A stretch of 64,000 nt of DNA from Clostridia bacterium (lineage in GTDB: Bacteria; Bacillota; Clostridia; Lutisporales; Lutisporaceae). A program made the translations under genes and the position numbers. This document shows, piece after piece, positions 15,510-58,337 of the stretch (its first letter is position 1; each line of letters begins with the position of its first letter). The DNA lies in NCBI GenBank assembly GCA_035628995.1, contig DASPIR010000010.1, positions 124,001-188,000 of the forward strand. Direction: 5' to 3'. Under the pieces are notes generated by a model. The model was given only the letters and a program-made list of their open reading frames with translations. It did no database searches and was not told where the DNA came from.

Positions 15510-16439
15510 ATGAATCACTTTATCGACTATCTTGATATAAACAAAGAAGTACTTGATGGACTCCGATATTACGACCCTATTGTTGCTCTTGAATCAACCA
15601 TAATTTCCCACGGCATGCCCTATCCGGAGAATATTGATACCGCCCTGGCTCTGGAAAAAATTATCCGTGACAATGGTGCCATACCGGCTACCATGGGGAT
15701 TATCAATGGACGTATAAAAGTAGGACTCACTCGTGAAGAAATGGAGTTTCTGGCATCTTCGAAGAATATTATCAAGACCAGCAGACGTGATATTCCTTTT
15801 GTAGTAGGCATGGGTCTTTCAGGAGGCACAACAGTTTCAGCAACTATGATTTTTGCCCAGTATGCAGGCATCCGTGTCTTTGCCACAGGAGGAATGGGCG
15901 GAGTTCATCGGGGTGCAGATAAAAGCTTTGACATATCAGCAGACCTTACCGAACTTTCATATACAAATGTTGCTGTGGTTTGTGCCGGTGTGAAAGCAAT
16001 ACTTGATATAGGCCTCACTCTTGAGCAGCTTGAGACACTGGGTGTTCCGGTTATAGGCTATGGTACGGATGATTTCCCAGCCTTCTATACCAGGAAAAGT
16101 GGCTTTAAGGTTCCAATGAGAGTAAATAACCCTCAGGATTGTGCAAAAGTGCTAAAGACCAAGTGGAATTTAAAGCTGGATGGCGGCGTAATAATAGCCA
16201 ACCCAATTCCTGAGCAGTATGAGGCACAGCGGGAAGATATAGACAAAGCAATAGAAATAGCTCTATTAGAAGCAGATAAGAATGGTATAAAGGGTAAAGA
16301 AGTTACGCCCTACCTTCTTGACAAGATCAAGGATATAACTTCCGGAAAAAGTCTTGAGGCAAATATGGCTCTGGTTAAGAACAATGCTTTGGTCGCTGCT
16401 CAGATAGCAGTTGAATACAGCAAGCTGGATAATGAATAA
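15510..16439 (+). CDS. psuG: Pseudouridine-5'-phosphate glycosidase
   Basis: A 309-residue enzyme that splits pseudouridine 5'-phosphate to uracil and ribose 5-phosphate. Family landmarks are ALESTIISHGMPYPEN near residue 25, IPATMGIINGRIKVG near 55, and TTVSATMIFAQYAGIRVFATGGMGGVHRG near 110-140. GGAGG lies 8 bases before the ATG. The likely partner kinase (17796) is on the same strand but mtnA intervenes on the other strand, so the two are not one transcript. A TATAAT-like box at 15438-15443 may belong to its promoter, but no convincing -35 is seen. Confidence 0.95.
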   Translation: MNHFIDYLDINKEVLDGLRYYDPIVALESTIISHGMPYPENIDTALALEKIIRDNGAIPATMGIINGRIKVGLTREEMEFLASSKNIIKTSRRDIPFVVGMGLSGGTTVSATMIFAQYAGIRVFATGGMGGVHRGADKSFDISADLTELSYTNVAVVCAGVKAILDIGLTLEQLETLGVPVIGYGTDDFPAFYTRKSGFKVPMRVNNPQDCAKVLKTKWNLKLDGGVIIANPIPEQYEAQREDIDKAIEIALLEADKNGIKGKEVTPYLLDKIKDITSGKSLEANMALVKNNALVAAQIAVEYSKLDNE

Positions 16440-16473
16440 TAATCATATAGAGCTGGGCGCTGAGGTTTTGCCT

Positions 16474-16505
16474 CGTGCTACGTGCTACGTGCCACGTGCT
16501 ACGTG
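16474..16505 (+). repeat. Short tandem repeat of a 7-bp unit
   Basis: About four and a half copies of CGTGCTA (one copy reads CGTGCCA) lie in the gap between psuG and the shared terminator. It does not encode an obvious product. Confidence 0.85.
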
Positions 16506-16546
16506 TATATGGTTGGGCTACGAAGCATTATTACTAAGACAAGAAA

Positions 16547-16584
16547 AAAGCCGCTTATATTGGAATTCCAATATAAGCGGCTTT
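16547..16584. terminator. Bidirectional terminator between psuG and mtnA
   Basis: A perfect 38-bp palindrome (AAAGCCGCTTATATTGGAA and its reverse complement) with A and T runs at its ends, between two convergent genes. Confidence 0.85.
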
Positions 16585-16587
16585 ACC

Positions 16588-17643
16588 TTATTCTTCAAAC
16601 AATCTCTTCAAGCCTTCACTGTATGGCTGACTTATAACGCCTTTCTCAGTTATTATGGCAGTTATAAGCTCATTTGGAGTTACATCAAATGCCGGATTGT
16701 AGGTCTTAACCCCCTCTGGAGCTGTCCTCCTGCCCATACCACAGGTAATCTCGTCGGCTTTTCTCTCCTCTATGGGAATTTCTTTTCCGCTGGGAGTATC
16801 CATATCAATGGTTGAAGTAGGTCCTGCTATATAAAAGGGTATATTATGCGCCTTTGCAAGCACTGCCAGTCCATATGTACCTATTTTATTGGCTGTGTCA
16901 CCGTTGGCTGCAACTCTGTCACACCCTACAATTACTGCATCTATTAAGCCCTTCGACATAACCACGGCCGCCATGTTGTCGCAAATAAGCGTAACATCCA
17001 CGCCAGCCTGAAGGAGCTCCCAGGTAGTAAGCCTTGCACCTTGCAGCAGAGGTCTTGTCTCATCGGCAAAGACCTTTATATTCCAACCCTTTTCCTTAGC
17101 AAGATAAATAGGTGCCAATGCGGTTCCAAACATTGCTGTTGCCAAGCCTCCTGCATTGCAGTGGGTCAGCACAGTCATTCCATCATGGAATAGGGTCAGT
17201 GCATTCTCTCCAATAGCTCTGCACATTCTTTCATCCTCATCCCTTATTTCATGGGCTTCCCTTAGAAGGATATCCTTCAGCTCCTCTACAGTCCTGTCCT
17301 TATTAGCACCAGCGATTCTCTCCATCCTTTTTAGCGCCCAAAAAAGGTTCACCGCTGTAGGTCTGGATGTAGCCAGATATTCGGAATTCTTTTTTAATGC
17401 AAGCAAGAATTCCTCAGAGCTATTAGCTGCATTATCCCTCATTGCCACACACAACCCGTAAGCTGCAGCAATTCCAATTGCAGGTGCTCCCCTTACCTTC
17501 AAGTGGAATATAGCATCCCACACATCCTCTGCCTTTTCAAGTTTTATAAACTCAGTTACACCGGGCAGCTTAGTCTGATCCAGTATAACCAATGCATTAT
17601 CCTCCCATTTAACAGACCTTAAAGCTTCCATAACCTTTTTCAT
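16588..17643 (-). CDS. mtnA: S-methyl-5-thioribose-1-phosphate isomerase
   Basis: A 351-residue member of the eIF2B-like isomerase family that converts methylthioribose 1-phosphate to methylthioribulose 1-phosphate in methionine salvage. The catalytic Cys is in [10 protein letters not shown] near residue 160 and the catalytic Asp in [19 protein letters not shown] near 240. [10 protein letters not shown] is also present. I use ATG 17643 (MKKVMEA) because GGAGG lies 8 bases upstream; a frame from 17658 exists. No other methionine-salvage gene is nearby, so it may work in a shorter 5'-deoxynucleoside salvage pathway. Confidence 0.94.
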
Positions 17644-17795
17644 ATGTAATACCTCCAATTTGATACGGCATTCAAATTCATTATAGATAATTAGCTGTTC
17701 AATTTCAATTACTTTAGCATTCTTATAATTTCATTGGTTATATGCTAAAATATGACTATAAGTTTTAAAGCAATTAATTATAGGGGTGAATGTAT

Positions 17796-18737
17796 TTGGA
17801 CGGATATATAGTGGTTGCCGGTGGAATAAATGTGGATATCAAAGGCAAATCCTTTGATAGAATGGATATAGGCAGCTCCAGTCCCGGAGCTATAGAAATC
17901 AGCCCAGGGGGAGTGGGTAGGAATATTGCTCACAACTTGGCGCTCCTGAATGTGCCAGTCAAGCTGTTGAGCGCTGTAGGCTCTGACGCACAAGGTGCGA
18001 AAGTACTTCAGGAAACCGCAGGCTGCGGCGTCAATGTCGACTATGTGCTTCACGCAGATGACAGCCTTACAGGAACCTATATTGCTTTACTGGACAATAT
18101 GGGTGAAATGTCAGCAGCATTATCCGACATGCAGATATTGGGGAAGCTTGATGTTGATTATTTCAAGACAAGACTTGAAATAATGAAAAAAGCGTCCTTT
18201 ATTATTTGTGATGCCAACCTTCCTGTCCCATCCATAGAATTCATAATATCAGCAGCAAATTCCTGCTTTATACCTGTATGTCTTGAACCTGTCTCTGTAA
18301 GAAAAGCACTGAAGCTCAAGAATTGCCTGAAAGGAATAAACTTCATCACCCCTAGTCTTGATGAGCTGAGCGCGTTGACTGGCATGGACGTACAAACCAA
18401 TAAAGCTGAGCTTTTGGCTGCTCAGCTTATAAAATCTGGTGTTCAAAATGTTATAACTACTTTGGGAAAAGAAGGCTTATGCTACACAAATTCTGAAGGA
18501 AATAAATTATACCAAAGCCTGCCTACGATTGTGACTGACGTAACCAGTGCCGGAGATTCTCTGACAGCCGGCTTCTTCTATGGCCTTATGAAGTATGGAG
18601 ATATAGACAAAGCCTTGCTGTGCGGATTGGCAGCCGCAGCCATAACTGTAAGCTCAATAGAAACTGTTAGCCCCAACCTGTCTGAAAGTAATATCAGTAA
18701 ATTAATTGCGCAGTGCGGCCTCCACCACATGCTTTAA
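17796..18737 (+). CDS. psuK: PfkB-family carbohydrate kinase, probable pseudouridine kinase
   Basis: A ribokinase-fold protein of about 313 residues. AGGINVDIKG starts the sugar lid, SPGGVGRNIAHNLALL is near 35, EPVSVRKA is near 170, and the anion hole and catalytic base are in DVTSAGDSLTAGFF near 250. The EPVS motif and psuG nearby point to pseudouridine as substrate; this is inference. AGGGGTG lies 7 bases before a TTG at 17796 but only 1 base before the ATG at 17790, so I favour the TTG. Its 3' end overlaps the convergent folD by 36 bases. Confidence 0.85.
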   Translation: MDGYIVVAGGINVDIKGKSFDRMDIGSSSPGAIEISPGGVGRNIAHNLALLNVPVKLLSAVGSDAQGAKVLQETAGCGVNVDYVLHADDSLTGTYIALLDNMGEMSAALSDMQILGKLDVDYFKTRLEIMKKASFIICDANLPVPSIEFIISAANSCFIPVCLEPVSVRKALKLKNCLKGINFITPSLDELSALTGMDVQTNKAELLAAQLIKSGVQNVITTLGKEGLCYTNSEGNKLYQSLPTIVTDVTSAGDSLTAGFFYGLMKYGDIDKALLCGLAAAAITVSSIETVSPNLSESNISKLIAQCGLHHML

Positions 18738-36042: not shown

Positions 36043-36073
36043 TCTTCTAAATAGATTGGAGCTTGTACATCTC

Positions 36074-36245
36074 CTACTCTATATATATGAGCCATTTATA
36101 ATTAGGATACAGTTCTCTGCCATGTTGTATATAGTTCGGTCCCATTCCTGCAGCCTTCAGTTCTTCAGGAGTTGCTCTATCCACTATCTTATATATAAGT
36201 GTCCCTATTATTTCCCAATAGGCCATTTCTTCTGCTCCATGATGT
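36074..36245 (-). pseudogene. cotJC remnant (both ends missing)
   Basis: The minus strand encodes EEMAYWEIIGTLIYKIVDRA, then TPEELKAAGMGPNYIQHGRE and LYP. This matches residues of the intact CotJC at 39662-40237 around its second helix. After LYP the reading leaves the family and stops at 36074. The part upstream of the matched block is also absent. No stop lies inside the matched block, so decay was by deletion rather than point mutation. Confidence 0.8.
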
Positions 36246-36377
36246 TATCAATTATATTTTAACACATTATATGCTTTATACAGAATATACTGATCATTGT
36301 TGAAATAATATCTGTTAGTTTCAGAAATGGCTTAAAACGCATGTGAGGTATATTTTATATTGACAAAGTACTCTCAG

Positions 36378-36722
36378 CTAAAATAACTTCTTTATTAATT
36401 CTTTATAAATTTTATCATCAATTTCTATAAGGCTTTTCTTGCCGTCTTTAAACTGTAATGCAACAACATGTATTCCTTTAGACTTTGCTGATAATCCTGC
36501 TAACAATCCTACGGGACCCAGAACTAACCCTCCTACAAGGCCTCTACCGACTGCACTTGCAGCACTCTTTCTCTTTACCTCATCAACAACCTCATATTCA
36601 TCTACAGTATCTTTATTAATAGGGTAATCTTTAAAACCTGATGATATGTTTATTGATCCAAAGAAAGTACCGACACTGCCATATAAGTAATCACCGGCAA
36701 TAACTTTATTTTTTGCACCCAT
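36378..36722 (-). CDS. Hypothetical protein with a glycine-rich hydrophobic segment
   Basis: A 114-residue protein. Residues 1-50 are polar (VIAGDYLYGSVGTFFGSINI). Residues 55-80 (ASAVGRGLVGGLVLGPVGLL) form a glycine-zipper-like hydrophobic stretch. The C-terminus (VVALQFKDGKKSLIEIDDK) looks like a small beta sheet. CGGAGG lies 9 bases before ATG 36722; a longer frame from 36740 includes the site itself. I do not recognise a function. Such proteins are often found in accessory regions. Confidence 0.65.
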   Translation of the reverse strand: MGAKNKVIAGDYLYGSVGTFFGSINISSGFKDYPINKDTVDEYEVVDEVKRKSAASAVGRGLVGGLVLGPVGLLAGLSAKSKGIHVVALQFKDGKKSLIEIDDKIYKELIKKLF

Positions 36723-36947
36723 ACTATTATTCCTCCGCATTTCAGAGTTTTTCCCAAATATCTACAATATTTTCATTAGTTGTGTTAATATTTCCAATAT
36801 TCTACATAATAAGATTGCCCCATTTCTATCTTTATAAATATCCCGAATTTTTATACTAGATTATTTTACTAGAAACTATTTGACAAAAACTTTTCCCGTT
36901 ATATCTGTATGTGGTACAGATTCAAACGGGCATTTTTATACTATTAA

Positions 36948-37229
36948 ACAAATTTTAGTTTATTGGCTGAGAAAGCGGAATGCTCTTATGAAGATTTATC
37001 TTGCCGCTATGTTGATAATCTTAACAGATTAGGTTTGTTAGAAATTTCATAAAACACATATGTTACTGATACGAATATTTATGATCTGTTAATTAATCAC
37101 CAAACTACAAAATATATTTGTAAATTCATAACAAATACGATTAAAAAAACTCCTGATATAAAAAGTGGTTCTATTTATGTAACCTCACTTGGAAAACAGT
37201 TTTATAAAGCTCGTGTTGTACATAAGTAA
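36948..37229 (+). pseudogene. Decayed C-terminal fragment resembling Abi-alpha/DUF4393
   Basis: One frame reads LLAEKAECSYEDLSCRYVDN and LNRLGLLEIS, hits a single stop, then continues NTYVTDTNIYDLLINHQTTK and KKTPDIKSGSIYVTSLGKQF. The LNRLGLLEI and TSLGKQFYKA pieces resemble the C-terminal region of DUF4393 (Abi-alpha) proteins, linked to abortive phage infection. No start or N-terminal half remains upstream. The family match is from memory and moderate. Confidence 0.45.
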
Positions 37230-37275
37230 ATAAATGACAATATAGAAAACAATAATTTTCTACATACTAATATTA

Positions 37276-37304
37276 TAAAAAAAGGAGGGCTTCGCTCCCT
37301 CCTT
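37276..37304 (-). terminator. Terminator of the broken cotJC copy
   Basis: AAGGAGGG pairs with CCCTCCTT around a GCTTCGC-type loop and is followed by seven T on the minus strand. It lies just past the pseudogene stop, matching the layout at the intact cotJC. Confidence 0.8.
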
Positions 37305-37307
37305 CAA

Positions 37308-37708
37308 CTATCTTTTATGCTTCATATGATCCATGTGCTCCTGAACCATTCTTAGAGTTTCACCGAACCTCTGGAAGTGAACCACTTCCCTCTCCCTTAA
37401 GAAGCTCAGTGTCTCTATTACGCCTCTGTCTTTTGTGGAATTTATTAGATGCTCATAGGTTGTTCTTACCTTCTGCTCTGCTGCAAGGTCTTCATGGAGG
37501 TTTGTTATAGGATCTCTATTGCCTGTATATATGCTGCAGTCCACGGCACTCCTGCAGCGTCATGAGGATAAATGTCATGACCGTACTGGACATAATGGGC
37601 TCCCAGTCCAGCTGCCTTCAATTCCTCAGGTGTTGCCCTATCTACTATCTTGTAGATAAGAGTTGCTATTATTTCCCAATGAGCCATTTCTTCGGTTCCA
37701 GTAAGATG
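37308..37708 (-). pseudogene. Second cotJC copy, 5'-truncated and frameshifted
   Basis: The upstream frame encodes HLTGTEEMAHWEIIATLIYK to AAYIQAIE, then runs into ILstop. The downstream frame (37308-37544) resumes DPITNLHEDLAAEQKVRTTY to the normal CotJC C-terminus DHMKHKR. Compared with the intact gene, one base is missing at about 37513-37517 (GCAATAGA-GATCC). About the first 65 codons are also absent. It should be nonfunctional. Confidence 0.9.
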
Positions 37709-37755
37709 TACGTAATAAAATTCTATAAATGATTCTTATTCTGTTTGGTTCTTTT

Positions 37756-39661: not shown

Positions 39662-40237
39662 CTATCTCTTATGCTTCATATGATCCATGTGCTCCTGCAC
39701 CATTCTAAGAGTTTCACCGAACCTCTGGAAGTGAACCACTTCCCTCTCCCTTAAGAAGCTCAGTGTCTCTATTACTCCTCTGTCTTTTGTGGAATTTATA
39801 AGATGCTCATAGGTTGTTCTTGCTTTCTGCTCTGCAGCAAGATCTTCATGGAGGTTTGTAATCGGATCTTCAATGGCCTGTATATATGCTGCTGTCCATG
39901 GCACACCTGCTGCATCATGAGGATAAAGGTCACGGCCATGCTGGATGTAATGAGGCCCCAGCCCTGCCTTTTCCAGCTCTTCCGGTGTAGCCCTATCTAT
40001 TATTTTATATATCAGAGTGCCTATAATTTCCCAATGGGCCATTTCCTCTGTTCCAATGTCTGTCAACACTGCCTTTGCTTCAGGTATAGGCATTGTATAT
40101 CTCTGACTCAGATATCTTATGCCAGCTGATAGTTCACTATCGGGACCACCATACTGAGCAAAGAGCAGCTTTGCAATTTTTAGATCGCAGCCCTCAACCC
40201 ATGCTGGGAATTCAAGCTTCTTTTCATAAATCCACAT
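39662..40237 (-). CDS. cotJC: Spore coat protein CotJC (manganese catalase family)
   Basis: A 191-residue protein of the Mn-catalase/ferritin-like group, full length for CotJC. WIYEKKLEFPAWVEGCDLKIAKLL is at the N-terminus, GTEEMAHWEIIGTLIYKI near 74-92 supplies Glu/His ligands, and EREVVHFQRFGETL near 165 the second pair. It is made in the mother cell and placed in the spore coat. It follows cotJB by 3 bases. Two broken copies lie further downstream on the same strand. Confidence 0.94.
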   Translation of the reverse strand: MWIYEKKLEFPAWVEGCDLKIAKLLFAQYGGPDSELSAGIRYLSQRYTMPIPEAKAVLTDIGTEEMAHWEIIGTLIYKIIDRATPEELEKAGLGPHYIQHGRDLYPHDAAGVPWTAAYIQAIEDPITNLHEDLAAEQKARTTYEHLINSTKDRGVIETLSFLREREVVHFQRFGETLRMVQEHMDHMKHKR

Positions 40238-49495: not shown

Positions 49496-49524
49496 AAAAA
49501 CTCGCCATTTCTGGTGAGTTAAAA
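49496..49524 (-). terminator. Terminator of the sugar/phosphodiester-glycosidase operon
   Basis: AACTCACC pairs with GGCGAGTT (one G-T pair) with loop AGAAAT, followed by TTTGTTTG on the minus strand, 13 bases after the last stop. Confidence 0.75.
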
Positions 49525-49536
49525 AATTTTTTTTAT

Positions 49537-50385
49537 TTACATACTCGCTTCTATAGTGCCATATATACAAGTTGTATCATCTCTCTTCTTAAACCTTAGA
49601 TAACGCGTACAGTCATGATCATATTCTTCAATTTCGTAAAGCTCCTTACCAATAGTTGATAATCCTCGTTCCAGGACATTTTCTATGAATTCAAAGCTGT
49701 TTTCAACTCTGTTGAAAAGGTCTAGATATCTGGAAAAGCCGTCACTCATCATTAAAAAGTGCAGAGGCTGAAGAATCTCCAGTTCCCCTTGCTGCCCATA
49801 ATCCAAGGCATTCTGTTCAAAGCTTAGTATGTAATAGCCGCCTTCTTCATTTCTATGTGACCTCTTTGCAAGGATTTCTAAAGTATGTGCTTTTCTAGCT
49901 TCTTCGAAGCTTATGTTTTGAGATATGCGTGTGTGGTCTATTTTCTTTAGAATAAACTTTTCAAATTCACCTAATGTGTCCTGTGTTAGATGTATAGCCT
50001 CTTGTCCATTCTTTATAATCAATGTGGAATCCCCTAATAAGTAATATTCAAGTTGGCTGCTTTTTTGTCTGATAATTATTAGGCTGCTGGAAGGGTATTG
50101 ATTTTTCTCTATTACTTGATAGTTCGTCGCAGTCCTATAAGCTTCATAGGTTTTAATTACCGTTTCTTTAAGGATTTCTTTTAGTCCTTTTGAATCATCA
50201 AGGTTTTGAACTAATACCTCACTGAATTTATCGACAAACCATTTGGAATCAGATAATTCTCCTGTCTTAGAATCCGACAGACATGTAACCCCATCCATTA
50301 ACCAAATGTAGTTTTTAAAGCAACCTATCCTATCTTCGTTGACATTACTATTCCCCTTAATTGAATATGTCTCTTTAATTATCAT
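49537..50385 (-). CDS. PP2C-like protein phosphatase
   Basis: About 282 residues of a PPM/PP2C fold. NSNVNEDRIGCFKN gives the first Asp, WLMDGVTCL the second motif, YYLLGDSTLII the GDS motif, LMMSDGFSRYL the SDG motif, and KRDDTTCIYGTIEA the DDT end. All metal-binding aspartates expected for a two-metal PP2C are visible. It is likely a cytoplasmic Ser/Thr phosphatase or a small-molecule phosphatase. The frame starts at 50406, overlapping the previous gene by 14 bases; I favour ATG 50385 after GGTGGTGA. A PP2C as the last gene of a sugar-uptake operon is uncommon. Confidence 0.8.
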   Translation of the reverse strand: MIIKETYSIKGNSNVNEDRIGCFKNYIWLMDGVTCLSDSKTGELSDSKWFVDKFSEVLVQNLDDSKGLKEILKETVIKTYEAYRTATNYQVIEKNQYPSSSLIIIRQKSSQLEYYLLGDSTLIIKNGQEAIHLTQDTLGEFEKFILKKIDHTRISQNISFEEARKAHTLEILAKRSHRNEEGGYYILSFEQNALDYGQQGELEILQPLHFLMMSDGFSRYLDLFNRVENSFEFIENVLERGLSTIGKELYEIEEYDHDCTRYLRFKKRDDTTCIYGTIEASM

Positions 50386-50392
50386 TTTAATA

Positions 50393-52690
50393 CTATTCAC
50401 CACCATTTAGATCAGTTACCATTATGGAATTTACTGATCTGACAACACCAGCACATGAACTATATGAATAAGCGATATCATTTAATTCAAACAACTCCTT
50501 TTGAGTTGTATAAGCCAGGAAAGATGATGCCCCGCCATCTATGTTCATAAGGTATTCAACATCACCAAACAATATTTTGGATATTTCAATTAAATCAAAA
50601 TAATCCGCCCCTGCACTTCTCTTGTTCCTTCCAGAACAGACCAGCGTGAAAAACTTATTGTCCTTAGTCAATCCTATTGCTGTCCTTGGGTGCTTTTCTA
50701 TTTTGTGTATTTCTGATTCCTGAGTCTGCATCGATAGCTGTGTCAGCCAACCCTCGCAGGTCAATTCATCCCTAAGCTTTTTCTCTGTGTCAAATTCCAT
50801 GCCGTCATAAATCAGGAACATACCCCCGCCATAACACCATTCATATTCATCATAGTCATATAAGTATAAATCAAAATGAGTCTGCCCGATATCAAAATAA
50901 CCATCTGAATCACAGCTCATATCAGGAAATAATAAATCCCATCTTTCCAAACTGAGTGAAATAACAACGCCAATGCTGGGTAATATGACATCTCCTTTTC
51001 TAATACATGTGATGGAATCATCTACACATATTATGTTTACTCTGTTTTCCCCGACTTTTTTGCGATAATGGTTGTACTCTTTATGGCCATTCTCCATGAC
51101 AAATGGTGTGTATAGTGTGACATCCCCGTTTGTATCGCTGTTAATGTCACATTCCTGCCATTTTATTTCAACATTATTTACAATTACTTTACCTGATTTT
51201 AAAGTCTTTCTGAAAAATTCGATTGCACCGTTTTTCTTCTTACCAATTGCTGCCTTGTTGTATAAAGGAAATGTCTCGTGCCTTCCATATATATTGCTTT
51301 CGAGCTTATAATCAATATGCCAGCCATACCTGTAGATTCTTTCCCTTTCCCTTGACTTTCTTAAGCTATTGTACATCTCTATGGTTTTAAGTGTTATAAA
51401 AAACATAAAATTAGATACCAGGCAATCTCCATATTCATGATTTTTAAAATATGCTCTTGGATTCATTGCGTTGTTCCATGTTTTAATTGATATATTTAAA
51501 TCTTTTGAATTATCAAGTTTAACATAGTTCACCCTGATATCATTCCCAAACCTGTCTTTATAGACATAATCATCTATATCTAAATAGTCATGCTTTTTCT
51601 TGATGTACCTTTTTATTAATTGCTGTGGTATATCACGGAAATCTGATTTGCTGATCCCTGTCCATTCATACTCTAAATCCAGCACTTTATCGGAATTGGA
51701 ACTAACAAAAATAGATGGGAACTCCCCCAATAATGTATCAAGGTCTCTTTGATATGCCTCCATGCCAATTTGATTATATATCCAATCTGACATTCTATAG
51801 TTAAATGCAGTTTTTTCCACCAGGCTGACATGCTTTATCATATCGTATCCCCTTGGGATATATATGAAATGTATCTCTTCTTCATCGATTGAATTGGTTA
51901 AGGCTCTGGTCATCAATTCACTGGAACGGCAATATACAAATGCTTCCACATTTAATTTCTTAAAGGATGCCAGGCACCACTCACCAAAACCGATTAAAAT
52001 GTCATTTGAACTCATTAATTGGATCTGGTCCATATCAAATCCATAGTAATAATAATCATCAACTATAAGATTCAACTCGTCTATTGGAATGTCTTCTGAC
52101 CTAACCTTCAAATAACACTCCAGATCATTTTTTGTAACCATAGAATGAATACATCTTTCCTCTTTTACTATGATATAAATATTATCTGAATACTCCTTGA
52201 TTTTTTTATATAGCTCAATCATCGCCCCCACATAAGTATAATCATCAATTATGAAGTATATGTTTTTAGTCTTATCATAGAGACTATCTAAAATATCACT
52301 CTGATCAATTCCTGTTATAGCAAGATGGTCGACCTCTCTTTTATAATAATTCGCTTTCATATCATCAATATATTGGCGGCAACCATTATCTAATAAGTTT
52401 CTTCTATAATTTATAACATCGGAATATATTTCTTCATCAGTTTTATCAGTCATATCCGGCAGTTTTTTAAAAAACCTTGTTAACTCTCCAATATATTCAT
52501 CATAGATATTTTGTTCAATCAAACCCCTGCTCTTTAGCGTATCTAAAAAACCGTCTTTTACAAAACGGTTCTCAGTTGTCATATCTGCAATTATTTCTCT
52601 ATATTGATATTGCTTTATCTTGGAATAACCTTCGAATTTTCCTCTGCTAAAGCTTCCCTTGATAAAATCATTATTCGCTATAAAACACAT
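50393..52690 (-). CDS. Large protein with C-terminal phosphodiester glycosidase (NAGPA-like) domain
   Basis: A 765-residue protein without signal peptide or membrane helix. Residues about 510-760 match the PF09992 type: RVNIICVDDSITCIRKGDVI, HPRTAIGLTKDNKFFTLVCSG, and the strongly typical end LMNIDGGASSFLAYT. Known members cleave sugar-phosphate diesters such as GlcNAc-1-P linkages. The first 500 residues are not a family I recognise. NIYFIIDDYTYVGAMIELYK with IHSMVTKNDLECYL faintly recalls DUF89 metal phosphatases; this is weak. It sits between a phosphohexomutase and a PP2C gene, overlapping the latter. Confidence 0.75.
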   Translation of the reverse strand: MCFIANNDFIKGSFSRGKFEGYSKIKQYQYREIIADMTTENRFVKDGFLDTLKSRGLIEQNIYDEYIGELTRFFKKLPDMTDKTDEEIYSDVINYRRNLLDNGCRQYIDDMKANYYKREVDHLAITGIDQSDILDSLYDKTKNIYFIIDDYTYVGAMIELYKKIKEYSDNIYIIVKEERCIHSMVTKNDLECYLKVRSEDIPIDELNLIVDDYYYYGFDMDQIQLMSSNDILIGFGEWCLASFKKLNVEAFVYCRSSELMTRALTNSIDEEEIHFIYIPRGYDMIKHVSLVEKTAFNYRMSDWIYNQIGMEAYQRDLDTLLGEFPSIFVSSNSDKVLDLEYEWTGISKSDFRDIPQQLIKRYIKKKHDYLDIDDYVYKDRFGNDIRVNYVKLDNSKDLNISIKTWNNAMNPRAYFKNHEYGDCLVSNFMFFITLKTIEMYNSLRKSRERERIYRYGWHIDYKLESNIYGRHETFPLYNKAAIGKKKNGAIEFFRKTLKSGKVIVNNVEIKWQECDINSDTNGDVTLYTPFVMENGHKEYNHYRKKVGENRVNIICVDDSITCIRKGDVILPSIGVVISLSLERWDLLFPDMSCDSDGYFDIGQTHFDLYLYDYDEYEWCYGGGMFLIYDGMEFDTEKKLRDELTCEGWLTQLSMQTQESEIHKIEKHPRTAIGLTKDNKFFTLVCSGRNKRSAGADYFDLIEISKILFGDVEYLMNIDGGASSFLAYTTQKELFELNDIAYSYSSCAGVVRSVNSIMVTDLNGGE

Positions 52691-52713
52691 GGCTTACCCC
52701 TCATTACAATCAT

Positions 52714-54114
52714 TTAATTAGATATAAACTCTTTAAACTTAGATTCTATATTCTCAAGTTCATATTCATCTATCGATTCTACAAATATTCTAATCATTGG
52801 CTCGGTCCCCGAAAATCTGCAAGTTAACCAACTGTTCTTAAAATATATTTTTAATCCATCGCTGTAATCTGTTTTCTCAATTTCATAATCAAAGCCAGGC
52901 AAAGCTTTTTGTTTGAATATCAGGTCTTCAAGTAGCACTTTCATTGATTTGTCTAAGCTGATATTATTTTCTCTAAAGAAATGTTTGCCATACTTGTTCT
53001 CAAGATTCTTAATAAGCTCCGAGACAGGTTTGTCAATTATTGATATCATTTCTAAAAATAGTGCCGTTGCGAATATTGCATCTTTACCCCTTATATGTCC
53101 TGCAATTGTCAGACCTCCGCTGCTCTCTCCACCTATAACGCAACCATGCTGTTCCATACCATTGCTTATATGCTTAAACCCCACCGGCACTTCGTAAGCA
53201 ATTTGTCCGTATGAAGCTGCGATTTTATCCAGCAGGTGAGTCGTGGACATGTTTCTTACAACCGGACCCACCATCCCTTTATACTCTAACAAGTAATAAT
53301 AAAGTAATGATAGAATCATATTAGGATGTATAAATTCGCCGTTTTCATCAAATACAGCGAGTCGGTCTCCATCACCGTCAGAACCGATACCCAAGTCATA
53401 GTCACCACTCAGAACGTGATATTTCAATCTCCCTAAACTCTCCAATGTCGGAGATGGTACTCTTTTACCAAAAAGTGTGTCGTGCCAATCATGAATGAGT
53501 TTACACTCACATCTAACTATGTATAAAATTGTCTGAAGATATTTTGCAGATACACCGTGCATAGGGTCTACAACAACCTTCAAATTTTTTCGCTTTATTG
53601 CATCCACATCAATACAATTTAATATGCCATCAATATACCGATTTTCGGGATTAATATATTCAATAAGACCTTTGTCCTTAGCCTCTTCACAGCTGATAGA
53701 TTTTATCGCACCTATACTTGTCATTCTAGCCTCTAATTTATCTGTAAATTCTATTGATGCATCTCTTCCACCCTTTAGTATAATTTTAACTCCATTATAT
53801 AAAGCAGCATTGTGGCTTGCCGTTACAGCTATTCCAAAATCCACACCCATTTCTCTGACAGTGAACATTGTCATAGGTGTCGGGCAAACGCTGTTTATAA
53901 AATATACTTTTATCTCATTTGCTGTTAATACCTGACTAATCCATGTAGCAGCTTCTCTGGATAAAAATCTTCTATCGTAGCTTATTACTATTTCTTTTCC
54001 ATGCTCATGATCGTTTATTTCGTCTGCTAAGGATTGTGCCAAGAGTTCAATATTGGATTTGATAAATTCGTCTCCAATTATTGCTCTCCAACCACCAGTG
54101 CCGAATTTAATCAT
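52714..54114 (-). CDS. Phosphoglucomutase/phosphomannomutase family protein
   Basis: A 466-residue alpha-D-phosphohexomutase. IKFGTGGWRAIIGDEF opens the protein, the phosphoserine loop is AVTASHNAALYNGVK near 95, the metal loop is GSDGDGDRLAVFD near 235, and the sugar loop is IGGESSGGLTI near 325. The C-terminal phosphate loop is CRFSGTEPMIRI near 440. It moves phosphate between C1 and C6 of a hexose or aminohexose. ATG 54114 follows AAGGATGAGACCT. It overlaps the ROK gene by 8 bases, so it probably feeds the imported sugar into metabolism. Confidence 0.92.
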   Translation of the reverse strand: MIKFGTGGWRAIIGDEFIKSNIELLAQSLADEINDHEHGKEIVISYDRRFLSREAATWISQVLTANEIKVYFINSVCPTPMTMFTVREMGVDFGIAVTASHNAALYNGVKIILKGGRDASIEFTDKLEARMTSIGAIKSISCEEAKDKGLIEYINPENRYIDGILNCIDVDAIKRKNLKVVVDPMHGVSAKYLQTILYIVRCECKLIHDWHDTLFGKRVPSPTLESLGRLKYHVLSGDYDLGIGSDGDGDRLAVFDENGEFIHPNMILSLLYYYLLEYKGMVGPVVRNMSTTHLLDKIAASYGQIAYEVPVGFKHISNGMEQHGCVIGGESSGGLTIAGHIRGKDAIFATALFLEMISIIDKPVSELIKNLENKYGKHFFRENNISLDKSMKVLLEDLIFKQKALPGFDYEIEKTDYSDGLKIYFKNSWLTCRFSGTEPMIRIFVESIDEYELENIESKFKEFISN

Positions 54115-55240
54115 AGGTCTCATCCTTCCACTTCAAGAAGAAATTATTGACTACATAATGAGCGCATCTGCCTGTGATATTATAGTCACTCAACACTCCT
54201 ATCCCCTTGAATGAACTCCACTTGTTGAGATTTTGATTGATATTTTCCTCAAGCATGCTGGTCAGCCCATCACCGAAGTATTGGACTAGCTTGCCTGTAA
54301 ATATTACTTTATCCAGGTCCAATATAGCTATGATATTAGTCAATGGCTCAGAAATATATCCTGCTATTTCTTTAATAATGCTCCTGGCCTTTGAATCACC
54401 AGCTTTGTAAAGTCTCGCTAACTCCTCAATCGTCATACCAGTCTTTTCTTCAATAGCCGTTATAGATGCTTCGGTTGTTAAGCAGCCCTTTTGACCACAT
54501 TTACATGTCCTAGGACCGTCAATAGAATATAATCTGACGTGGCCGAATTCCCCAGCGGCATTATTAGTGCTCCTCAGTAAATTTCCATTTAGGACCAGTG
54601 CTGCACCGATACCTCCACCGAGTTTTATTAGCATGTAATTATTTGTTTGTTCTCTTCCGTAATCTGTTTCAGCCAGAATATTAACGTCATTTTTTATCTG
54701 AACTGGAATATCCAAATACTCCAGTTCAGATAAAACATTGATTCCATCCAATCCTAAATTCTTAGATTTTATTACTACTCCATTCTTGTCATCAACTATT
54801 CCTTCTATACTAATTGCTATGCCCAGGATTCTCAAATTTTCAGCACTCTTACTAATCTTATCAATTACTTCTTTCAAAACATCTATTACATTTCTGTTCA
54901 TATCTCTCATAATGTTCAATTTACTTATTTCATTACCTGCAGCATCATATAAGCCTGCATTAATTGATTCTACAGAAATTTCAACCCCTATGGAGCATAG
55001 CTGTTGATACCTGATAGACAGAGCCATGGGGTTCCGACCCAGTGCTTTGTTTTCTAAAGTAATCTCCTCAACCATGCCTTCATTTATTAGCTCTTTGACC
55101 AGATTTGTAATCGTTTGATTTGACATGTTTGTCATTTCAGCAATCTGAGCTCTGTAAATATTTTTTTCAGAATAAATTATTTCTAAAATTCTTCTCCTGT
55201 TGTTGATTTTCATTAAGTCTGGACTAGTAATTTTATTCAT
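54107..55240 (-). CDS. ROK-family transcriptional regulator
   Basis: A 377-residue NagC/XylR-type protein. The N-terminal winged helix (RRRILEIIYSEKNIYRAQIA and MSNQTITNLVKELINEGMVE) is followed by a ROK domain. That domain has the sugar-binding AAGEFGHVRLYS near 235 and the zinc site CKCGQKGCLTTEAS near 255. It is likely the local repressor, inactivated by a sugar or sugar phosphate. Probable binding sites flank the operon promoter. It lies inside the operon, 10 bases after the binding-protein gene. Confidence 0.93.
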   Translation of the reverse strand: MNKITSPDLMKINNRRRILEIIYSEKNIYRAQIAEMTNMSNQTITNLVKELINEGMVEEITLENKALGRNPMALSIRYQQLCSIGVEISVESINAGLYDAAGNEISKLNIMRDMNRNVIDVLKEVIDKISKSAENLRILGIAISIEGIVDDKNGVVIKSKNLGLDGINVLSELEYLDIPVQIKNDVNILAETDYGREQTNNYMLIKLGGGIGAALVLNGNLLRSTNNAAGEFGHVRLYSIDGPRTCKCGQKGCLTTEASITAIEEKTGMTIEELARLYKAGDSKARSIIKEIAGYISEPLTNIIAILDLDKVIFTGKLVQYFGDGLTSMLEENINQNLNKWSSFKGIGVLSDYNITGRCAHYVVNNFFLKWKDETYD

Positions 55241-55249
55241 ATCTACCTC

Positions 55250-56527
55250 TTATTTGAATATATCGTTTGCTTTATCAGCGATATTTTTCATGCCTTCGTC
55301 AACTGTCATCTCTTTATATGCAATTTTCTGTATTACTTCAGAAATAACGGATGAAAGTTTAGGATACTCTTCAATTGGTGGTCGAGCTACACCATAGGTC
55401 AAGACTTTAGCTGCTTCAATCATATGCGGGTTTTCTTTTCCGAACTCTGTATACCTGGTGCTCTCCCTAGCAGACTTTGCCACAGGCAGATAACCGGTTC
55501 TTATTGCCCACTCTGCATGATTCTCACCGGTTGTCATCCACTTCATGAACTTCAGGGTTTCCTGCTGCACTTTTTCATCACTCTTGAATATGAAGTAGTG
55601 GTTGGATCCGAGACCGCTAGCCAATTGATCCTTACCAGGAAGCATAGCTACGCCGACATTCATTTTCTGTTTGGTTATGTAGGTGTTTGCTGCGCCTTGT
55701 GTACCGATTGCCATTGCAACTTGTTTGTCAATAAACGGATCCTGTCCTACAGCAATAGGTGCATATCCGTCTTTTATCATTTTTGTATAGAAGTCCAGCG
55801 CTTCCAACCCTTTTTCATTATTAAAACCTATATTATTGCCTTCTTTATTCAATATACTCTGCCCGTTTTGCCACAAGAAACATTCCCAAGTCCATGCTGT
55901 TCTCTCATTTGGTGCAATGGGCAGCCAAACCCCGAATCTTTTCCCGTCTGACAGCTTCTTGGAGGTGTTGTATAACTCATCCCATGTAGTTGGGGGATTC
56001 TCTATCCCTGCTTCCTTGAACATATCTTTATTGTATATAAGTAAAAGTGTCCCTGCTTCAATCGGAACGGAGTAGATTTTATTCTTGTACATGCCTGCTT
56101 CCATGAGCCCCTTAGGAATGTCGTTCTTCCAAGCATCATCCATGATTGCTCCAACCTCAACCAGCTTTCCTGAGCTCTCCAAAACTCCTGTCCAGGTTGG
56201 GTAACCCCATAAAAGGTTGGGCTCTTGATTGGAAAGTACTGCAGATTGAACCTTTTGCAGCATTTCGTCGCCATTAGCAACAAATTTGGGATTGATTTTT
56301 ACATTTGGATTTTCACTTTGATATTTCTCAATCATTTCAAGCAGCACTTCATTTTTATCCGCGGCATAGCCATGCCAGAACTCGACAACCACCGGCTCAG
56401 CTGCTTCAACAGCTGTCTTTTCCTGAGGTGCATTAGCCACGGTCGCCTCTTTAGCGCATCCGGCTAATGATAGTGATAATATTAGTACTAATACTAACAT
56501 TAAGGCAATTGGTTTTTTTCCTTTCAC
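55250..56527 (-). CDS. Sugar ABC transporter substrate-binding lipoprotein
   Basis: A 425-residue family 1 extracellular binding protein. The lipobox is SLSLAGCAKEA with Cys near 24. VVVEFWHGYAADKNEVLLEM starts the mature fold and YPTWTGVLESSGKLVEVG is near 110. Such proteins bind oligosaccharides, glycerol phosphodiesters or sugar alcohols; UgpB-like (glycerol-3-phosphate diester) binding is a tempting option given the phosphodiester glycosidase downstream, but unproven. It follows the two permease genes. Confidence 0.93.
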   Translation of the reverse strand: MKGKKPIALMLVLVLILSLSLAGCAKEATVANAPQEKTAVEAAEPVVVEFWHGYAADKNEVLLEMIEKYQSENPNVKINPKFVANGDEMLQKVQSAVLSNQEPNLLWGYPTWTGVLESSGKLVEVGAIMDDAWKNDIPKGLMEAGMYKNKIYSVPIEAGTLLLIYNKDMFKEAGIENPPTTWDELYNTSKKLSDGKRFGVWLPIAPNERTAWTWECFLWQNGQSILNKEGNNIGFNNEKGLEALDFYTKMIKDGYAPIAVGQDPFIDKQVAMAIGTQGAANTYITKQKMNVGVAMLPGKDQLASGLGSNHYFIFKSDEKVQQETLKFMKWMTTGENHAEWAIRTGYLPVAKSARESTRYTEFGKENPHMIEAAKVLTYGVARPPIEEYPKLSSVISEVIQKIAYKEMTVDEGMKNIADKANDIFK

Positions 56528-56546
56528 GATGAATCCCCCTTTAAAT

Positions 56547-57374
56547 TTATTGTTCTTTTCCCCCAGAAAAGGCTATACTCTCTATAACTTTTTTCTGGAA
56601 TATTATAAACACGATAATTACCGGCACCAATGTCAGCGCAGTTCCTGCCATTAATGCACCCCAGTCTGTTTCTATCGCATTTATTTCCCTAAAGTAAGCC
56701 AGTCCTAACTGCAAGGTATATAATTCTTCCTTACTGACAATCAGTAGGGGCCAGAAGTACTGATTCCAGGCATAAATGAAGATTAATATAAAAGACGTAG
56801 CGAGAATTGGTCTTGAAATCGGTAGGATGATTTTGGTAATAACCTGAAAAGTAGTACATCCATCGATTATTGCAGCTTCTTCGATTTCTTTCGGTATCTG
56901 CATGAAGAATTGTTTTAACAAAAATACAATCAGTGCACTCCAAGCAAATGGAATTATTAGTCCAGCCAATTTATTCAACAGACTCAACTTTTCTAAAGTT
57001 AATATCATTGGTATCATAATCGTCTGAGCCGGCAGCATTAATCCGGACAGCAGAAGTATAAAGAGTATATTCTTACCCCTGAATTCCATTCTTGCAAAAG
57101 CATACGCTGCCATTACAGATGTTATCAATTGTCCAAAAATTATAAATGCTGTTACAATTAAACTATTGATGAAAAATCTTATAAAAGGAAAACTCGTTAC
57201 AGCCTTTTTATAGTTATTGAGATTTATCTCACTTGGTATCCATTTTATCGGGATTGTGAATATTTCATTTGAAGGCTTAAAGGACGTAGACAGCATCCAT
57301 AAAAATGGCAATATCATCATGCTTGCCAATCCGTATAAAATGACATATTTTGATACCTTCTTAATATCTTTCAT
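56547..57374 (-). CDS. Sugar ABC transporter permease (MalG type)
   Basis: A 275-residue inner-membrane protein with six helices. The EAA loop EIEEAAIIDGCTTFQVITKIILPISRP near 185-210 binds the ATPase. It starts at ATG 57374 with GAGGAG upstream. The stop of the preceding permease overlaps this start region. It forms the channel with its MalF-type partner. No ATPase gene is in this operon, so a shared MsmX-like ATPase from elsewhere is expected. Confidence 0.92.
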   Translation of the reverse strand: MKDIKKVSKYVILYGLASMMILPFLWMLSTSFKPSNEIFTIPIKWIPSEINLNNYKKAVTSFPFIRFFINSLIVTAFIIFGQLITSVMAAYAFARMEFRGKNILFILLLSGLMLPAQTIMIPMILTLEKLSLLNKLAGLIIPFAWSALIVFLLKQFFMQIPKEIEEAAIIDGCTTFQVITKIILPISRPILATSFILIFIYAWNQYFWPLLIVSKEELYTLQLGLAYFREINAIETDWGALMAGTALTLVPVIIVFIIFQKKVIESIAFSGGKEQ

Positions 57375-57375
57375 A

Positions 57376-58239
57376 CTATTTCTCCTCAACAAATTTCTTT
57401 TGGACTATTGTAATCAACACAGTCAATATAAACAGAACAAAGGCAATAGCAGATGCATATCCCATTTCATATTCAACAAATCCCACTTTATATAAGTAGG
57501 TTACCAACATTTCTGTTCTGCCTATCGGCCCGCCATTTGTTGTGACTTTGACAATATCAAATATCTGAAACAACGAGTATATGCTGCTTGATACCATAAC
57601 GAAAAATATTGTAGGTTTCAGTAAAGGCAGTGTCACTCTAAAGAATTTCTGTACACTGTTGGCACCATCAATCTCAGCAGCCTCATAAAGCGTCCTGGGA
57701 ATGGTCAGTAATCCCGCAATAAATATAACCATATTGTAGCCGATGCTTTTCCAGACACCTATTACAACAAGCGCTGCCATAGCTAAATCCGGATCTGCCA
57801 ACCAAGTTTTCACTTCAATTCCAAATACAGATAATATTGAATTCAACAACCCATATCTATCCGGGAGAAATATCCATGCCCATACCACACCGACAGCTAC
57901 TAGTGACACGATGTGCGGCAGGAAGTAGATTCCCTTCAATATCTGAAACCCCTTCAAGCTTTCGTTCATTAAGTAGCTAAGCACAAGCGAAATGCTTACA
58001 GATAGGGGAACGGTAAAAGCTAAATATATAAAGGTGTTTTTTAATGCGTTAATAAACTTCTCATCACCAAATAATCTTATATAATTGCTGAAGCCTACAA
58101 AGGTTTTATCTACTGAAAAACCATTCCACTCGAACATAGTGAGTATGAATGAATAGAATAATGGTATTAAGAAGAATATAGCAAACAGAATAAAAGTCGG
58201 AGCTATAAGCAAGTATGGAGTATATACCCGTTTGTTCAA
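57376..58239 (-). CDS. Sugar ABC transporter permease (MalF type)
   Basis: A 287-residue membrane protein with six helices (TPYLLIAPTFILFAIFFLIP first). The EAA loop reads TLYEAAEIDGANSVQKFFRV near 200. The best start is TTG 58239 (MNKRVYTP), 7 bases after GGGGGAG; the longer frame from 58257 contains the ribosome site. It is the first gene of the operon, about 20 bases after the predicted RNA start. Confidence 0.92.
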   Translation of the reverse strand: MNKRVYTPYLLIAPTFILFAIFFLIPLFYSFILTMFEWNGFSVDKTFVGFSNYIRLFGDEKFINALKNTFIYLAFTVPLSVSISLVLSYLMNESLKGFQILKGIYFLPHIVSLVAVGVVWAWIFLPDRYGLLNSILSVFGIEVKTWLADPDLAMAALVVIGVWKSIGYNMVIFIAGLLTIPRTLYEAAEIDGANSVQKFFRVTLPLLKPTIFFVMVSSSIYSLFQIFDIVKVTTNGGPIGRTEMLVTYLYKVGFVEYEMGYASAIAFVLFILTVLITIVQKKFVEEK

Positions 58240-58256
58240 GACTACACTCCCCCCCA

Positions 58257-58337
58257 ATTAATCAAATCGTTTTATTAATTCGATTGTAAGCTTTTCCATC
58301 TTCTGTGTCAATATATTTTTCAAGTCATTTGATTAAT
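58257..58337 (-). promoter_or_regulatory. Operon promoter flanked by an 11-bp inverted repeat
   Basis: On the minus strand TTGACA (58306-58311) and TACAAT (58283-58288) are 17 bases apart. ATTAATCAAAT (58257-58267) and its exact complement ATTTGATTAAT (58327-58337) lie downstream and upstream of the promoter, 70 bases centre to centre. AATCG and CGATT form a second, smaller dyad next to the -10. These are candidate operators for the ROK protein encoded in the operon. Confidence 0.65.

Follow-up and report, generated by a model that had tools for sequence, protein, structure and literature searches.

The operon at 58239-49537 of the window (the whole 64,000-nucleotide stretch of DNA analysed here) raises the question of what its products take up and process, and which of its genes belong together in doing so. 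We confirmed seven ORFs, head to tail on the minus strand, that encode in gene order permease A, permease B, a binding lipoprotein, a ROK regulator, a phosphohexomutase, a 765-aa NAGPA fusion and a PP2C protein. On the evidence of sequence comparison and structural modelling, the operon is built around an undescribed enzyme family, a DUF89-fold/NAGPA fusion, and the fusion itself is the new finding. In it, a diverged relative of a lysosome-related phosphodiester glycosidase of humans is joined to an eroded domain of phosphatase type. The products of the operon probably import and cleave a sugar that is unusual and may be phosphate-linked.

Organization of the operon

The features of the locus, in the direction of transcription, are:

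58315..58337, no strand assigned: upstream putative ROK operator ATTAATCAAATGACTTGAAAAAT, an imperfect 23-bp palindrome with 3 mismatches to ATTAATCAAATNNTTTGATTAAT
58283..58311, minus: promoter TTGACA-17-TACAAT, between both operators (11/12 matches)
58257..58279, no strand assigned: downstream putative ROK operator ATTAATAAAACGATTTGATTAAT, 1 mismatch to the palindrome
57376..58257, minus: permease A, CUT1-type (BPD_transp_1; best NCBIfam match UgpA, 173 bits, below the family cut-off)
56547..57392, minus: permease B (BPD_transp_1; UgpE-like, 157 bits, below the cut-off)
55250..56527, minus: sugar-binding lipoprotein with a GTG start (SBP_bac_8, E 5e-40)
54107..55240, minus: ROK-family repressor, HTH + ROK, NagC-like (ROK E 2.5e-37; HTH_24 E 8e-8)
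52714..54123, minus: phosphohexomutase, an optional module (four PGM_PMM domains)
50393..52690, minus: 765-aa fusion, residues ~27-283 with a DUF89/ARMT1 fold (fold match) and ~380-765 a NAGPA domain (HMM)
49537..50406, minus: PP2C_2 phosphatase (PF13672, 28 bits against a cut-off of 24)
49499..49520, minus: terminator hairpin followed by a T-rich tract, 3' of PP2C (fold -9.1 kcal/mol, z -1.58)

The initial annotation had described this gene set, and its family calls hold (PP2C_2, NAGPA, four PGM_PMM, HTH+ROK, SBP_bac_8 and two BPD_transp_1 domains). The genes had been described as head to tail with overlaps, which is right for three neighbouring pairs; the other three pairs are separated by 9-23 bp (spacings in gene order, from ORF coordinates: -17, +19, +9, -17, +23 and -14 bp), and some of the overlaps hinge on the choice of start codon. 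By comparison with the 287-aa Vallitalea protein, whose start it matches, the true start of permease A is probably TTG 58239, and PP2C may start at ATG 50385. The one strong promoter that had been proposed is borne out, and TTGACA/TATAAT-like elements lie at the equivalent position in homologous loci. Upstream, the operon is bounded by the strong terminator of the preceding genes (58421-58398, fold z -4.15). The single terminator claimed for the operon itself is present as a hairpin with a T tract after PP2C, but is weaker than the upstream one (z -1.58 versus -4.15). From these sequence features we infer that the seven genes form one transcription unit, read as a single transcript.

Two observations concern other parts of the window. 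An AT-rich stretch at 36060-37710 holds apparent fragments resembling the intact manganese-catalase/CotJC-like gene at 39662-40237, and these look like decayed duplicates. At 15510-18737, pseudouridine-5'-phosphate-glycosidase-like and sugar-kinase-like genes flank an oppositely oriented methylthioribose-1-phosphate-isomerase-like gene (all named by eye).

Distribution and transporter genes

A contig scan with the fusion protein led to two Vallitalea MAGs, and whole-genome searches around them led to G557 (with two copies), G409 and G541. A five-gene core comprising permease A, permease B, the binding protein, the ROK gene and the fusion is shared, gene order included, by the window and five further genomes (G394, G395, G557, G409 and G541). 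Identities between Vallitalea and window proteins are 72-80% for the transporter (binding protein 72-73%, permease A 78%, permease B 79-80%), 61-62% for ROK and 53% for the fusion. No full-length copy of the fusion was found in the other 21 genomes of the window's own family, and the 391-genome class sample held only the window's own copy, as was also the case in these 391 genomes for binding-protein orthologs at E up to 1e-90. Apart from G557, none of the other genomes in a 398-genome phylum sample held a full-length copy, and no relatives were found among viral contigs or among plasmids and phages. As judged from these comparisons, the operon is retained in a few distantly related clostridia. 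This patchy distribution, together with a G+C content of 0.364 in the operon (0.339 in the fusion gene) that is lower than the 0.414 of the rest of the window, suggests that the operon may have been gained horizontally. Our literature search, outside which most subscription journals lay, found no description of such a fusion or operon.

The binding protein and two permeases are those of a CUT1 importer, although an ATPase is not encoded alongside them: no ABC ATPase gene is found in the window operon or at the other six fusion loci, and the ATPase is presumably shared from elsewhere. The closest solved chain to the binding protein is 7bvt (E 8e-39), and its scores against UgpB and sugar-binding proteins are at family level only. 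We rejected the UgpB/UgpA/UgpE matches as proof of glycerophosphodiester import, as the scores are far under the equivalog cut-offs. Import of an aminated sugar, which had also been suggested, found no support.

The second, paralogous fusion of G557 lies beside a different ABC importer (about 32% identical to the window's) and a LacI-type regulator. The fusion adjoins a sugar ABC importer in 7/7 loci, and these importers belong to two lineages. The paralogous locus (L078:4847-12935, G557:C1) encodes a trehalose/maltose-type binding protein, two permeases, the fusion and a LacI-family regulator; a repeated GCCAACGATGGC-type palindrome upstream of its binding-protein gene may be an operator.

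Control by the ROK protein

The ROK gene is conserved beside the fusion in six loci. Two 23-bp palindromes lie on either side of the promoter, between permease A and the upstream terminator, and the palindrome pattern has four strand-wise matches in the window, all at these two sites (0.03 expected). A pair of such palindromes, with the consensus ATTAATCAAATSATTTGATTAAT, flanks the promoter in 6/6 core loci. Copies in the core loci have 19-22 of 23 matches to the consensus, those of the window 20 and 21, where a site with at least 18 would be expected by chance 0.25 times per 64 kb. Neither the LacI-type locus L078 nor the Vallitalea mutase loci (L053 and L054) contain an operator of the ATTAATCAAATSATTTGATTAAT type. 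The regulator combines the HTH and ROK domains of a ROK repressor with a conserved palindromic operator predicted by comparison. Because the twin palindromes are conserved at the promoter in all six core loci, local ROK control of the operon is well supported by comparative sequence evidence, as the initial annotation had proposed for a sugar ABC importer (SBP_bac_8 with two BPD_transp_1 proteins).

The fusion protein

Seven full-length fusion homologues, 28-54% identical to the window protein, can be aligned from end to end. The N-terminal half of the fusion matched no Pfam family at E up to 10, the DUF89 (PF01937) profile included; PF01937 had no match at E up to 1 in the fusion homologues and none in the window's own genome. 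A full-length model from three sequences was set aside (pLDDT 34), and a model of residues 1-342 from seven sequences had a pLDDT of 70.7 and a pTM of 0.70. A Foldseek search with this N-terminal model placed DUF89 entries at ranks 1-9 (best E 1.2e-6). In VIA-align, thirteen DUF89 chains were the best matches (Z 13.3-15.1; next fold 7.4), and the best DUF89 superposition covered residues 27-283 (Z 15.1, rmsd 3.5 A over 225 residues). Compared as profiles, sets of seven or eight clostridial DUF89 proteins matched the N-terminal half collinearly and in the same register (E 2.7e-4 and 9.5e-4); an earlier comparison with three fusion sequences had given only P 0.04, against E 2.7e-4 with seven. 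The metal-site Asp of the DUF89 ND.T motif is missing in 7/7 fusions, as is the Lys of GKGQ, where the motif reads G[FL]GE; the DN pair survives as DD/DN in 4/7. By this modelling, the N-terminal ~290 residues are a DUF89 fold and not a demonstrated DUF89 phosphatase, as the likeness to DUF89/ARMT1 proteins lies in the fold and does not extend to the curated profile, the DN...ND.T metal site or GKGQ. The initial annotation missed this predicted DUF89/ARMT1-fold half and, by the comparison of loci, that the conserved set is the transporter, ROK and the fusion.

The C-terminal half scored 46.1 bits with the NAGPA HMM (PF09992) in the window fusion, against a cut-off of 25, and 55-58 bits in three diverged homologues. 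Eleven residues (P668, R669, T670, G673, G687, R688, N716, D718, G719, G720 and S722) are invariant in 7/7 fusions and kept in 16-17 of 17 canonical NAGPA proteins, and R751 is also kept in this test of conserved residues. The Asp of the NAGPA 'DGR' motif, found in 16 of the 17 canonical proteins, is a Ser (Ser686) in every fusion. The fusion thereby exceeds the profile cut-off but lacks the complete canonical set of conserved residues. Roles of catalytic residues in both families (DUF2233 and DUF89) were assigned from general knowledge and conservation. Since the DGR Asp is Ser in all seven fusions, ordinary NAGPA chemistry is not assured, and the reaction may have changed.

No signal peptide or membrane segment was found in any of the seven fusions (maximum 17-residue mean hydropathy 1.5), and most of the sampled canonical NAGPA proteins, which are clostridial, have a hydrophobic segment near the N-terminus. 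With no hydrophobic stretch in any of the seven, the fusion protein should be cytosolic, and the intracellular NAGPA action that had been suggested fits this prediction. Mammalian NAGPA also hydrolyses UDP-GlcNAc, and a propeptide keeps it inactive until the late Golgi (PMC12024695). By analogy, a relative working in the cytosol would have to leave UDP-GlcNAc intact, and this may bear on the altered DGR motif.

It is rather improbable that the fusion is instead a non-catalytic binding or regulatory protein, with two dead enzyme halves that detect a sugar phosphate entering the cell and, by feedback, affect transport or PP2C. Such a role would fit the loss from 7/7 fusions of the DUF89 metal-site Asp, the GKGQ Lys and the NAGPA DGR Asp, but most of the NAGPA signature is invariant even in homologues that share only 28-31% identity with the window protein, and five of the seven loci have no other catabolic enzyme in the operon, so that sugar would be imported without being processed.

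Mutase and phosphatase genes

The phosphohexomutase, a four-domain member of the phosphoglucomutase/phosphomannomutase superfamily, adjoins the fusion in two of the seven loci, in the window and, on the other side of the fusion, in G409; it is absent from the operon in the remaining five. The window mutase shares 51-54% identity with its counterparts in G409 and Vallitalea. Its closest relative in each of the two Vallitalea genomes checked (52-54%) sits in a GHMP kinase/GlmU-like nucleotidyltransferase/galE operon, which suggests that the mutase acts on hexose-1-phosphates and that the window operon recruited it. The G409 mutase has 65-66% identity to the Vallitalea galE-operon mutase but only 51% to that of the window. 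A single joint recruitment of the mutase with the fusion was set aside, as the tree does not resolve it, and membership of the Vallitalea mutase operon in the same ROK regulon was rejected, as no operator is found there. That operon (L053:5454-9843 and L054:3150-7552), made up of GHMP kinase, GlmU-N-like nucleotidyltransferase, phosphohexomutase and galE genes and adjoining an AraC-type regulator gene, seems to be a UDP-sugar salvage route, unusual in having its own mutase.

In an alternative reading, the NAGPA fold has been re-purposed and the fusion cleaves alpha-glycosides inside the cell or acts by phosphorolysis, in which case a neutral alpha-glucoside would be imported and the mutase would convert glucose-1-phosphate, as in known phosphorylase operons. 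Although unlikely, this alternative deserves a real share of belief. The binding protein of the paralogous locus L078 is nearest to trehalose/maltose-binding proteins (6dtq, 283 bits; 1eu8, 232 bits), DGR has become SGR in all fusions, and two loci have the mutase next to the fusion, at different positions. Yet the mutase is missing from five loci, the binding-protein match is only at family level, and NAGPA proteins are not known to have phosphorylase activity.

The PP2C protein exceeds the PF13672 cut-off, and the aspartate motifs NEDR, MDG, SDG and DDTT can be read from its sequence. Among the loci examined, only that of the window has PP2C beside the NAGPA fusion, and no PP2C relatives were found in the two Vallitalea genomes. 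Seven other relatives (25-33% identity) occur among the 391 class genomes, and none of the six neighbourhoods that were read has a NAGPA fusion. In three genomes the PP2C relative lies directly beside a GT4 glycosyltransferase, a recurrent pair (L092:5714-7857, L095:6788-8902 and L096:6654-8766). By its distribution, PP2C appears to be a recent local addition, private to the operon of this genome.

The initial annotation had favoured a dedicated pathway of NAGPA, mutase and PP2C, in which PP2C would dephosphorylate the product or a pathway protein. We consider this quite improbable. In the window the three genes lie side by side and would be transcribed together, but no other NAGPA-fusion locus has PP2C, nor does either of the Vallitalea genomes searched, and the neighbourhoods of its relatives have GT4 glycosyltransferases in three cases and such a fusion in 0/6. 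Nor did the neighbourhood comparison bear out NAGPA, PP2C and phosphohexomutase as a conserved set, given that PP2C joins NAGPA only here and the mutase lies beside the fusion in 2/7 loci. In sum, the operon is real and its broad nature had been rightly guessed, and the interpretation is partly supported.

Proposed function

Comparison shows one conserved unit that consists of a CUT1-type importer, a ROK repressor together with its twin palindromes at the promoter, and a DUF89-fold/NAGPA fusion predicted to be cytosolic. We hypothesize that these genes form a self-regulated unit for saccharide uptake and cleavage, combining import, cytosolic NAGPA cleavage, assistance by the DUF89 fold and ROK control, a reading that we hold tentatively, at a little under an even chance. 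The binding protein would capture a saccharide with an anomeric phosphodiester or related alpha-linkage, and the ROK protein would leave the DNA once that sugar or its product builds up. The NAGPA half would then cut the anomeric (phosphodiester) linkage in the cytosol. Because part of the phosphatase metal site has been lost, the DUF89-fold half would most likely bind the phosphorylated product or position the substrate, as opposed to acting as a normal phosphatase. Where present, the mutase may interconvert the 1- and 6-phosphates of the hexose set free; with the gene missing from the operon in 5/7 loci, a hexose phosphate as product is a tentative assumption.

A more specific and more doubtful proposal, though one that we regard as a genuine possibility, is that the fusion represents a new cytosolic enzyme family in an undescribed route for phosphodiester-linked sugars, and that its DUF89-fold domain has changed from a phosphatase into a module that handles substrate or product. 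The modelled DUF89 fold is in any case used here outside its known phosphatase families. If phosphodiester-linked sugars are indeed cleaved, this points to a class of nutrients such as phosphoglycans, teichoic-acid-like compounds or glycerophospho-sugars, for which we know of no import route of this kind. The physiology of bacterial NAGPA-family proteins is little known. As this predicted cytosolic member comes with its own importer and regulator, the ROK inducer or the ligand of the binding protein would reveal the substrate of a NAGPA-family enzyme.

Comparison with known systems

In its gene content, the operon resembles the ROK/NagC-regulated CUT1 sugar ABC operons of Bacillota, with which it shares a binding protein, two permeases, a ROK protein, a catabolic enzyme, an ATPase assumed to be shared and twin promoter operators; unlike theirs, its catabolic enzyme is no known glycoside hydrolase or phosphorylase. 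The Vallitalea GHMP kinase-GlmU-like-phosphohexomutase-galE operon (L053 and L054) holds close relatives of the window mutase (52-54%), but has no transporter, NAGPA or ROK operator.

The two halves of the fusion recall separate families. With the DUF89/ARMT1 damage-control phosphatases (PF01937; 2g8l, 2ffj and 6umq), it shares the predicted fold over residues 27-283 and a collinear profile match, whereas it has no Pfam match, lacks the ND.T Asp and the GKGQ Lys in 7/7 homologues, and is joined to NAGPA. With the NAGPA/DUF2233 phosphodiester glycosidases (PF09992; the human uncovering enzyme 6pku and the bacterial 3ohg), it shares an HMM score over the cut-off and the PRT..G, GR and N.DGG.S motifs, kept in 7/7 fusions. 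It differs from these in having no signal peptide or membrane segment, in carrying SGR for DGR, in the DUF89-fold domain attached to it, and in being encoded together with an ABC importer.
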